Source of the DNA: Taurinivorans muris
GTDB taxonomy: Bacteria; Desulfobacterota; Desulfovibrionia; Desulfovibrionales; Desulfovibrionaceae
Direction: 5' to 3'
DNA: 64,000 nt
Assembly: GCF_025232395.1 (NCBI RefSeq)
Contig: NZ_CP065938.1
Location: 1,860,001-1,924,000, forward strand
Shown: one piece after another, positions 61,251 to 64,000 of the stretch
Layout of the letters: each line of letters begins with the position of its first letter
Numbering within the stretch: position 1 is the first letter of the stretch
The notes under the pieces: generated by a model
The model's database searches: none
Told to the model about the DNA's origin: nothing
Seen by the model: only the letters and a program-made list of their open reading frames with translations
Program-made: the position numbers and the translations under genes

Positions 61251-62813
61251 ATGGTTCGCGAAAAAACGGTAAAAAAGGTAAGCATTATTGACCTTGGAAG
61301 CAATTCCGTGCGCATGAATATTGTGCAGATCCAGCCCAATGGCGCCGCTTCGCTCATTTTGCAGGAAAAAGAGATGGTTCAGCTCGGGCGGGACGCTTTT
61401 TTGCAAAAAAAATTGCAGGAAAGCGCCATGCAAAGAACCTTGTCGGTTTTGCGGAATTTCGTTGCCCTTTGCAAAAAACATTCTGCGGACGAGTTTTTGG
61501 CCGTTGCGACGGCGGCGGTGCGGGACGCGGAGAACGGCAAAGCCTTTTTAGCGGAAATAACCAAGCAAACGGGCATTGTTTTTTATTCCATTTCCGGTTT
61601 GGAAGAAGCCCGGCTCATTTATAAAGGTGTTTCGCAGGATTTTCCGGTATCGGACACCTTACGGTTTTATTTGGACATCGGCGGGGGCAGTTCGGAATTT
61701 ATCGTGGGGGATTCCTATTCCCACAGGGAACTTGATTCTGTGAAAATCGGCTGTGTGCGTTTGGCTGATATGTTCATGAAAGATAAACACGGAGCGGTGA
61801 GCGAAGAGGAATACGCCCGAATACAGGATTATGTGCGTCTTGAAATAAACCATACCCTCGGGCGTTTGTCCGGTTATGTCTTGGAAGAAATGGCAGCAAG
61901 TTCCGGCACCGCGCGCTGTCTTTTGCAGATAGCGCAGAGTCTGGATGAAGAAAGCCTTTTTCAGAAAAATTTTCTTTCCTATAAGAATATTTGCAAAATC
62001 GCCCGCATGCTTTGCGCGAAAACTGAGGAAGAACGCAAACGGATTATCGGCATGCATCCGAAACGGGTCAATATCATCATTCCGGGGATAGCCATTTTGC
62101 AGACCGTTATGGAGGAACTTGGCTTCAGCGGTTGTTATGTCAGCGATTCCGGTCTTCGCGAGGGAATTTTAAGGGTTTACCTTGAAGAAAAATATCCTCA
62201 CGCGACCGTACATGAGAATACCATCATTCAGGAAAAAAGTGTTTTTAAATTAGCCCGTTCCGTAAAATATGAAGAACAGCATGCAAAGCATGTCGCCCAT
62301 TTGGCTGTACGCTTGTTCGATAGCGCAAAAAGCCTTTCTTTGCATTCTTTTTCGGAATTTAAACGGCAAACGCTCTATTATGCGGGGATTTTGCACGATA
62401 TCGGCATTGTGCTCGCCTTTGCGAAGCATGATGAACATGGTTGGTATATTGCGAAAAATTATTCCAATTTGCTTGGTTTTACAGAAAAAAGGCAGTTGGA
62501 ACTGGCTCTTTTGGTCGGTTCGCACAGAATGAAAGAAAATTCCTGTTTGCAATCCTGTACGGAGATTGCGCCGGAAGAAAAAAAAGATTTGGAATTGCTT
62601 GCAAGTTTTCTCAAGATAGCTGAAGCCTTGGACAGAAACCATGAGCAATATGTGGATGATGTGTATTTTGAGAAAAATGGCGATACGGTAAATATTTGTG
62701 CCGTCAGCTCCGAACCTGATTGCCTGGAGCGGAAAAAACTCACAGAGGGTTTACCTCTTCTCAGACGGACAATTCCGGCTTTGCAAAGTCTTGTTTGGAA
62801 GATTAAGGATTGA
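61251..62813 (+). CDS. Ppx/GppA family exopolyphosphatase with HD domain
   Basis: A 520-residue enzyme that hydrolyses polyphosphate or (p)ppGpp. The N-terminal ASKHA fold has IIDLGSNSVRMNIVQ (about 12-26), ATAAVRDAENG (about 86-96), the SGLEEARLIYKGV (about 115-127) block and the phosphate loop LDIGGGSSEFIVGD (about 141-154). The C-terminal HD-type region (about 330-515) has LHDIGIVLAF near 383-392. Which substrate it prefers cannot be told. Its start lies 37 bases after a terminator and it has no clear promoter. Confidence 0.93.
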   Translation: MVREKTVKKVSIIDLGSNSVRMNIVQIQPNGAASLILQEKEMVQLGRDAFLQKKLQESAMQRTLSVLRNFVALCKKHSADEFLAVATAAVRDAENGKAFLAEITKQTGIVFYSISGLEEARLIYKGVSQDFPVSDTLRFYLDIGGGSSEFIVGDSYSHRELDSVKIGCVRLADMFMKDKHGAVSEEEYARIQDYVRLEINHTLGRLSGYVLEEMAASSGTARCLLQIAQSLDEESLFQKNFLSYKNICKIARMLCAKTEEERKRIIGMHPKRVNIIIPGIAILQTVMEELGFSGCYVSDSGLREGILRVYLEEKYPHATVHENTIIQEKSVFKLARSVKYEEQHAKHVAHLAVRLFDSAKSLSLHSFSEFKRQTLYYAGILHDIGIVLAFAKHDEHGWYIAKNYSNLLGFTEKRQLELALLVGSHRMKENSCLQSCTEIAPEEKKDLELLASFLKIAEALDRNHEQYVDDVYFEKNGDTVNICAVSSEPDCLERKKLTEGLPLLRRTIPALQSLVWKIKD

Positions 62814-62999
62814 GTTTTGTTTTTGCCGTACTTGCCTTATGCCGGGATAGGGTTGTTAAAAATCTCATACGCTTGTTAACGGAGTATTTTTTCGGGAAAA
62901 GCATAGACAAATGTTCTTTTGCCGTTTTGTGAGTACATAATTTCCAGTATTTCGGTTCTGTTTTGTAAAGATAAAAATAAAATTTCTGAAAAAGTAAAG

Positions 63000-63025
63000 G
63001 ACTGCAAATAATTGCGGTCTTTTTT
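63000..63025 (+). terminator. Intrinsic terminator before the iron-box gene
   Basis: GACTGCAA / TTGCGGTC (one G-T pair), a 4-base loop and a T run. It ends transcription from ppx 190 bases after its stop. The 62814-62999 stretch shows no gene. Confidence 0.72.
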
Positions 63026-63044
63026 ATATAATGGAAAAATTTAA

Positions 63045-63073
63045 TTGAAATTGATATTGACTTTCAATTTCAA
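63045..63073 (+). promoter_or_regulatory. Fur-box-like inverted repeat
   Basis: TTGAAATTGA (63045-63054) and TCAATTTCAA (63064-63073) form a perfect inverted repeat with a 9-base centre. Its AT-rich, TTGA-containing arms resemble Fur operators of Desulfovibrio relatives. It overlaps the -35 element of the promoter below, so binding would repress the gene under iron-replete conditions (inference). Confidence 0.5.
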
Positions 63074-63085
63074 TTAAGGCATTAT
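63057..63085 (+). promoter_or_regulatory. Promoter of the STAS-like gene
   Basis: TTGACT (63057-63062) and CATTAT (63080-63085) with a 17-base spacer, inside and just after the inverted repeat. Confidence 0.5.
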
Positions 63086-63134
63086 GTCTTTAACAAACGT
63101 TTGTGTGAATTTCCGGGCTGAGAAAGGAGTGAAT

Positions 63135-63509
63135 ATGGTTTCAGCGGATTATAGAGTTGATTATAGGTGTAGCAATGGCAATATCCATGTGGATGTAAGC
63201 GGTGAATTTAATCGGAATACGGCGGGTGCGGTTTTGGAAATCCTGCAAACCGCTTATACGGGCAGTGGGCGTATTTTTATAGATACCGCACAAATTCAGA
63301 ATGTTGTGGAATGCGGGGCGGAATACTTCAAGACCGCTTTTGCGGCGATTGATGTTCCGACGGCCTGCCTGTTTTTTAAAGGGAAGAAAGGGGAACGTAT
63401 CGGTCCTGACGGTTCAAGATTGCTTTTAATGAAAGAAAGGGAAAAGAAATGTTGTGGAAATTGTAAGAATTGCTCTTGCAAAAATCATAAATCTTACCAA
63501 GGGGAATGA
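63135..63509 (+). CDS. STAS-like protein with Cys-rich tail
   Basis: A 124-residue protein of unknown function. Residues about 12-95 read like a STAS fold: IHVDVSGEFNRNTAGAVLEI (about 16-35) and RIFIDTAQIQNVVECGAEYF (about 46-65). The C-terminal tail CCGNCKNCSCKNH (about 106-118) holds five cysteines and a histidine, a likely metal or Fe-S site. The ATG at 63135 follows AAAGGAGTG. Its stop overlaps a further ATG (ATGA), the remains of a flavodoxin start, so it was probably translated with flavodoxin. Iron control is suggested by the inverted repeat upstream. Confidence 0.65.
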   Translation: MVSADYRVDYRCSNGNIHVDVSGEFNRNTAGAVLEILQTAYTGSGRIFIDTAQIQNVVECGAEYFKTAFAAIDVPTACLFFKGKKGERIGPDGSRLLLMKEREKKCCGNCKNCSCKNHKSYQGE

Positions 63510-63582
63510 TACGGCTGCCGTTGGCATAGTGTGTGGTTCCGAAAACGGAAACACGAAATCCGTTGCTGATGAAATTGCCTGA
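63506..63582 (+). pseudogene. Flavodoxin remnant
   Basis: ATG at 63506 overlaps the preceding stop. One base after it is lost; the shifted frame then reads TAAVGIVCGSENGNTKSVAD and EIA before TGA at 63580. GSENGNTKSVA is the FMN-phosphate loop of flavodoxins (usual GSTTGNTxxxA). The remaining 110 residues of a flavodoxin are absent; sequence to 63672 does not match. It seems to be a decayed, formerly coupled flavodoxin gene. Confidence 0.5.
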
Positions 63583-63700
63583 AGTTTGGAACGGATAGAG
63601 AAAAAGAAAATTAAATATCGGCAACATAAAAATACCTTAACGAAAAATTTTATCTGCCATAGCCGTTCATAATTCATCGCAACATTATGCAACTGCCTCC

Positions 63701-63738
63701 ACACAAAAAACGGGTTATTGATAACCCGTTTTTTGTGT
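63701..63738. terminator. Bidirectional terminator
   Basis: An 18-bp perfect inverted repeat ACACAAAAAACGGGTTAT / ATAACCCGTTTTTTGTGT with a 2-base centre. Each arm carries a run of six A or T residues and serves transcripts from both sides. Confidence 0.85.
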
Positions 63739-63776
63739 GTGTGTGATGTCGGAATTTTTTGCTTGATTTAGTTAAA

Positions 63777-64000
63777 TCATACAGTTTTTCCTGCTGTGTC
63801 AAGCTTGTATTTTGCATAGGCGCGCACGAGGATTTCATGCATTTGCTCGCGGCTGATACAGTCTTTCGTGTCAAAGGCATAGGCGATATAATTTTTTTGC
63901 TGTTTCGTAATGCTTGTGTGAATGCCCGAAAAAAGTTTTTCAACTTCCTTTTTTTCCGCCCTTTCGTCCGGCAGTTCATTGTTTTGCGGGTCCTTATAGT
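63777..64000 (-). CDS. Unidentified protein, C-terminal part (runs off right edge)
   Basis: The last 73 residues of a gene that starts outside the window. It reads YKDPQNNELPDERAEKK, then KLFSGIHTSITKQQKNY, DTKDCISREQMHEILVRAY and ends DTAGKTV. It is charged and helical, with no recognised motif. The stop is at 63777-63779, shortly before the bidirectional terminator. Confidence 0.65.
   Translation of the reverse strand, partial: YKDPQNNELPDERAEKKEVEKLFSGIHTSITKQQKNYIAYAFDTKDCISREQMHEILVRAYAKYKLDTAGKTV

Follow-up and report, generated by a model that had tools for sequence, protein, structure and literature searches.

A cysteine-tailed STAS-like protein next to a decayed flavodoxin gene, a probable member of the Fur iron-starvation regulon in Taurinivorans muris and relatives

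Sulfate reducers rely on iron-rich electron carriers and have to ration iron when it is scarce. Which part could be played in this by a small, unnamed gene of Taurinivorans muris that stands behind an iron-box-like palindrome and in front of the remains of a flavodoxin gene? This question was addressed for a stretch of 64,000 nucleotides (the window), which belongs to the genome of a sulfate-reducer-type bacterium (a single contig, 2.17 Mb, 99% complete). The gene in question, which encodes a STAS-like protein with a cysteine-rich tail, follows a Ppx/GppA-type gene at 61251–62813, and the features of the locus are compiled in Table 1.

Table 1 Features of the STAS-like locus, in positions of the window, and the evidence for each.
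Feature	Position	Strand	Evidence
Palindrome of 37 bp with 14-bp perfect arms	63041..63077	.	self-inverse match, pattern search; includes 63045–63073
Two putative overlapping 17-bp Fur-type boxes (63051–63067 and 63057–63073, 6-bp shift)	63051..63073	.	pattern, profile, published arrangement
Promoter-like hexamers TTGACT-17-CATTAT	63057..63085	+	under and past the box; weak, 5 such pairs found, 3.0 expected
Ribosome-binding-like AAAGGAG	63123..63129	+	sequence
STAS-like protein with Cys tail, 124 aa	63135..63509	+	homologues, fold; start by sequence and relatives
Tail motif CCGNCKNCSC, residues 106–115	63450..63479	+	sequence, homologue alignment
Flavodoxin remnant, residues 2–39, with in-frame TGA at 63580–63582; start codon and rest lost	63514..63630	+	profile match, E 4.5e-6
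Possible terminator, inverted repeat with T-rich flank after the flavodoxin remnant	63700..63739	.	self-inverse match, 95% over 40 bp; absent from the terminator listing

The open reading frame of the STAS-like gene extends from 63084 to 63509. A start at 63084 was rejected, as this first ATG overlaps a −10-like hexamer; the ATG at 63135, which gives 124 residues, is the likely start, since it is preceded by AAAGGAG and agrees with the start of the relatives. Named matches to the protein came from a metagenome-assembled genome (MAG) labelled Desulfovibrio sp. (identical) and from an uncultured Mailhella MAG (70%). The window protein matched no Pfam family and gave one chance match only in NCBIfam (E 0.11). 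Among 29 homologues, Pfam matches were obtained to STAS_2 in ten (best E 0.00047) and to STAS in two, the tabulated scores being below the respective cut-offs (12.3–16.3 vs 29.2 for STAS_2 and 12.7 vs 22.6 for STAS), so that the cut-off for a STAS domain (PF01740 / PF13466) was reached neither by the window protein nor by the tabulated homologues. A sequence search of the PDB with the family profile ended with a STAS protein as best match (E 0.26). The structure model, which was built from three sequences, has a pLDDT of 62.6 and a tail of low confidence, and its strands and helices follow each other as beta-beta-alpha-beta-alpha-beta. With this model Foldseek ranked RsbV first (E 2.6e-4), and SpoIIAA and other antagonists were among the top rows; a second fold comparison of the same low-confidence model yielded Z values of 8–10, with non-STAS chains ranking equally high. 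The predicted fold is likely STAS-like, though unproven.

Behind the gene, the first-pass annotation had recognised a flavodoxin remnant whose start was said to be overlapped by the stop of the STAS-like gene. The remnant is real and longer than assumed, as it reaches 63630. The overlap does not exist: it belongs to a mechanical 42-aa open reading frame (63454–63582), which starts within the STAS-like gene, though out of its frame, and was discarded as a gene, whereas the homology begins just past the stop at 63509. About three quarters of the flavodoxin gene are gone. No intact full-length short-chain flavodoxin (TIGR01753) was found in the window's genome, which holds only residues 2–39 with one stop, and a genome search detected no flavodoxin copy besides the remnant; the sole Flavodoxin_1 (PF00258) match of the genome sits in a 415-aa frame. 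A sequencing error was considered and is unlikely, since the same remnant occurs in a MAG (locus L004) which agrees with the window at 1193 of 1202 positions here; the genome G129 of the same species carries it too, and its coordinates suggest that it is probably the same assembly as that of L004.

Six genomes of the genus were surveyed for both genes. An intact flavodoxin directly follows the STAS-like gene in G001, G002 and G003, i.e. in each of the three congeners that have retained it, and the downstream flavodoxin at locus L005 passes TIGR01753 (135.2 vs 123 bits). The window's genome (G000) and G129, which represent one species, contain the STAS-like gene plus the flavodoxin remnant. The remaining genome, G004 (98% complete), contains neither gene.

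A perfect inverted repeat over the promoter had been claimed for the STAS-like gene, and this observation was confirmed: TTGAAATTGA-N9-TCAATTTCAA is exact at 63045–63073 and its arms are perfect even out to 14 bp (63041–63054 and 63064–63077). With up to three mismatches allowed, the pattern search found no second match in the window, while shuffled windows contained 0.04 matches on average and at least one match in 3 of 100 shuffles. According to excerpts of Rodionov et al. 2004 (PMC545781), the delta-proteobacterial Fur box reads WTGAAAATNATTTTCAW, two overlapping boxes with a 6-bp shift are a Desulfovibrio feature, and feoAB and flavodoxin are under Fur. The site at 63051–63073 fits this published 17-bp box and, at 63051/63057, also the Desulfovibrio-type arrangement, being the only 6-bp-shifted pair among 31 genome-wide pattern matches. 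In a profile of 39 published Fur sites, whose own median is 17.3 bits, the second box scored 21.0 bits and the pair 40.4. The loose pattern itself was weakly specific genome-wide (31 sites vs 5 with a reversed control); 22 of the 29 sites outside the STAS-like locus lay within script-picked open reading frames and 7 between them. Promoter-like hexamers under the box correspond to the placement a repressor site would need, although chance hexamers are common. From the sequence we infer that a Fur-family protein would bind at this site and that the gene would be induced on loss of iron. An Rfam search of 62700–64000 returned 0 matches, and the inverted repeat behind the flavodoxin remnant is probably a terminator common to the convergent gene.

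Searches detected the STAS-like gene in 31 of the 199 family genomes, in 78 of 348 genomes and 11 of 59 genera of the order and, tail-less copies included, in 36 of 395 genomes of a draw from the phylum. From the 78 order genomes 40 regions, chosen by us, were read, and neighbours were counted up to 5.5 kb from the gene if they shared its strand. Flavodoxin was a neighbour in 13 loci and feoA/feoB in 5; a further 13 loci had a porin but neither of these (one together with DUF2325), and 1 had DUF2325 alone. None of them was present at 8 loci, three of which lie on contigs ending less than 650 bases downstream. The flavodoxin-adjoining copies belong to the genera g1, g2, g13, g51 and g23. The genus g51 contributed 17 of the 40 loci, 3 with flavodoxin, 2 with none and 12 (L117–L127 and L145) in which a Desulfovibrio-type porin follows the STAS-like gene. 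This porin passes NCBIfam DESULF_POR1 and may be part of the same iron response.

Outside the order, where 25 genomes had a match, 20 regions from 19 of these were read, and 5 of the regions had either flavodoxin (3) or feo genes (2) nearby. The two genes thus stand together in relatives, as would be expected from the operon proposed in the first-pass annotation, in 3 of 3 same-genus genomes, 13 of 40 order loci and 3 of 20 regions outside the order. Outside the order, copies with at least three tail cysteines were near flavodoxin or feo in 5 of 8 cases, vs 0 of 12 for the others (Fisher p 0.0036). The contrast does not hold within the order, where the counts are 16 of 38 with tail and 2 of 2 without, and over all 60 regions 21 of 46 copies with tail compare with 2 of 14 without (p 0.058). 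The tail-less copies outside the order (L177–L182, L184–L188) stand away from flavodoxin and feo, some of them beside open reading frames that we labelled response-regulator-like. Furthermore, a DUF2325 gene, confirmed as PF10087 at L014, recurs next to the STAS-like gene (L130, L137–L142, L146, L171, L173, L176). In the f5 loci it is located between the STAS-like gene and flavodoxin, and at L137, L139, L140 and L141 a second STAS-like copy lies about 2.2–2.4 kb upstream of the first; in the two translated cases (L016, L017) this second f5 copy has no Cys tail.

Upstream regions of the homologues were then scored with the Fur profile, for which L115 and L142 were left out of the 40 loci on account of too little upstream sequence (n = 38); in the first scoring L042 and L043 were void, their contigs ending before the upstream region. 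A box of at least 15 bits precedes 28 of the 38 homologues and a shifted pair of at least 25 bits 23 of them, vs 15 and 11, respectively, of 183 control genes from these regions, with cut-offs that were chosen after the first profile scores had been seen and with copies of one genus that are not independent. The ten homologues without a 15-bit box are those of G091 (beside feoAB), G025, G230, G241 and G308, where flavodoxin follows and DUF2325 precedes the STAS-like gene, and the five scored f5 copies, which reached 9.5–13.6 bits and mostly show a similar but weaker palindrome. A Fur-type box also precedes the feoA-feoA-feoB operon of the window's own genome (G000:C1 around 1019400–1022215; L064, L065). 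Two FUR-family proteins are encoded in the window's genome, either of which might be the one to bind, and we counted this against the regulon reading. A further Fur-type box (G000:C1:943943–943959; L060) is situated 31 bp ahead of a FUR-family gene, an arrangement suggestive of self-control by that regulator. In the same genome feoB is followed by a 41-aa FeoB-associated Cys-rich open reading frame (PF12669, E 1.7e-6). For FeoC (PF09012), 22 of 199 genomes of the family gave matches, all of them weak, with E values no better than 1.6e-5 and frames of 162–730 aa, and the window's genome gave none.

Taken together, the STAS-like protein probably belongs, hitherto unrecognised, to the Fur iron-starvation regulon, in a setting that would be broader than one flavodoxin operon. 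The earlier proposal of an iron-sparing operon member that was retained after the loss of flavodoxin holds insofar as it is supported by the co-location with flavodoxin and by the boxes; its setting had been drawn too narrowly, since many copies stand beside feo genes, a porin or none of these. Ancestrally, the gene would have headed an operon of two genes, the second encoding a short-chain flavodoxin. An iron-loaded Fur-family protein would occupy the box and block the promoter, and when iron runs short the STAS-like protein would be made, formerly together with flavodoxin. In T. muris the flavodoxin has decayed, as its start codon and most of its length are missing and a stop has arisen, while the STAS-like gene remains together with its start signals and the box. 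From the survival of the gene there, and from the copies that occur elsewhere without flavodoxin, it would seem that the STAS-like protein has an independent part in iron handling.

As to what this action might be, the five tail cysteines noticed in the first pass could be assigned to residues 106, 107, 110, 113 and 115. Cys110 and Cys113 are present in 29 of 29 homologues, Cys106 in 28, Cys115 in 27 and Cys107 in 11, and several homologues have His-rich ends. We infer that the tail would bind iron, zinc or an Fe-S cluster. The protein could be a FeoC-like accessory that binds FeoB or FeoA, senses iron or a cluster with its tail and adjusts ferrous uptake. The element C-x-G-x-C-x-x-C of the tail indeed resembles the FeoC motif CxxGxCKxCPx4-7C as quoted in an excerpt of PMC8749426, feoA/feoB lie beside the gene in 5 of 40 order loci, 2 of the 20 regions beyond the order also have feo genes, no FeoC was found in the window's genome, and 6 of 29 homologues match FeoB_associated (PF12669) in the tail (best E 0.031). 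We nevertheless consider this role unlikely: the tabulated PF12669 scores are 13.0–13.6 vs a cut-off of 27 and the window protein has no such match, the FeoC profile matches 0 of 29 homologues, 35 of 40 order copies are not near feo, the genome already has the FeoB-associated open reading frame after feoB, and FeoC adjoins the STAS-like gene in G025. On the latter two grounds a plain substitute for FeoC was rejected. Alternatively, the Cys-rich and in some species His-rich tail may act as a metallothionein-like sink, trapping zinc or copper that enters along with iron uptake. This is rather doubtful to us, too; it would account for the four tail positions conserved in 27–29 of 29 homologues and for the His-rich ends, but not for the conservation of the STAS-like domain with its KG..G loop.

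Attention can also be turned to the domain instead of the tail. With RsbV and SpoIIAA as the closest folds, a switch of the anti-sigma-antagonist type is conceivable, by which iron status is passed to a kinase/sigma-factor cascade. A common fold does not show a common function, however, and the column which we take, from the alignment, to be the phosphorylated serine of anti-sigma antagonists holds Ser in 9 of 29 homologues and Cys in the window protein; a conserved phosphorylatable serine was thus not found among the 29, and we regard such a switch as very improbable. Finally, the STAS-like gene could be a relic which is being lost in the wake of flavodoxin. The branch of T. muris carries 19–20 unique residue changes vs 5 and 10 on the branches of two relatives, which together with the lack of both genes in G004 would speak for decay. 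Three neighbouring genes gave branch changes of 86:51:31, 14:3:2 and 8:12:6, i.e. this branch is also long in two of the three, and there is no sign of special decay in the STAS-like sequence. The gene compares with those of the two nearest species at pN 0.18–0.20 and pS 0.67–0.76, values that we counted in favour of the regulon reading. Moreover, frame, tail cysteines, start signals and box are intact, and other genomes keep the gene without an adjoining flavodoxin, which makes a relic quite improbable.

Returning to the membership in an iron-starvation regulon, the biochemical role of the protein is a guess: the STAS-like domain might dock to a partner, itself guessed, and the Cys tail might serve as sensor or carrier by binding Fe(II), Zn or an Fe-S cluster. 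Feo is our guess for one candidate partner, owing to the feo neighbours and to the resemblance of the tail to the excerpted FeoC motif (PMC8749426). A more far-reaching idea, which we offer with considerable doubt, is that the STAS-Cys protein serves Desulfobacterota-type bacteria as a conserved iron-sensing adaptor: its tail would be loaded with Fe(II) or a cluster and its domain would signal this state to the ferrous importer and the adjoining electron carriers, making it an analogue of FeoC on another scaffold. A conserved, unnamed iron-starvation protein would offer a direct handle on how sulfate reducers sense and share iron, and the decayed flavodoxin reveals which of two operon genes was dispensable. 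No description of the STAS-Cys protein was found in searches of open-access papers, and it may be described elsewhere. Excerpts of PMC10913485 and PMC5686591 contain nothing on the gene; in an excerpt of PMC5701242 flavodoxin and FeoA genes drop together in nitrate, with locus tags that could not be linked to the STAS-like gene.

Compared with known systems, the protein would share its predicted order of strands and helices with the STAS proteins (RsbV, SpoIIAA, MlaB), and its best fold matches, which non-STAS chains equalled in the second comparison, are of this kind; it differs from them by scores below the Pfam cut-offs, by the serine site, which is not conserved, and by the Cys tail, which replaces the last helix in the low-confidence model. 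FeoC is likewise small, linked to iron uptake and equipped with a C-terminal Cys motif, whereas the STAS-like protein has no FeoC match, another predicted fold and a position usually outside the feo locus. The FeoB-associated proteins (PF12669) have a similar Cys spacing in the tail, with matches below threshold, but the STAS-like protein carries a soluble domain instead of a membrane helix, and the genome holds a separate PF12669 open reading frame. The short-chain flavodoxin (TIGR01753) is encoded directly downstream in relatives and is reduced to residues 2–39 and a stop in T. muris. As far as excerpts of PMC545781 go, the locus shares the box consensus, the 6-bp-shifted boxes and the company of flavodoxin and feoAB under Fur with the delta-proteobacterial Fur regulon, in whose iron section a STAS-like gene before fld is not named. 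Fur control of flavodoxin in Desulfovibrio has been published already, and what is probably new is the STAS-Cys protein as a putative member.
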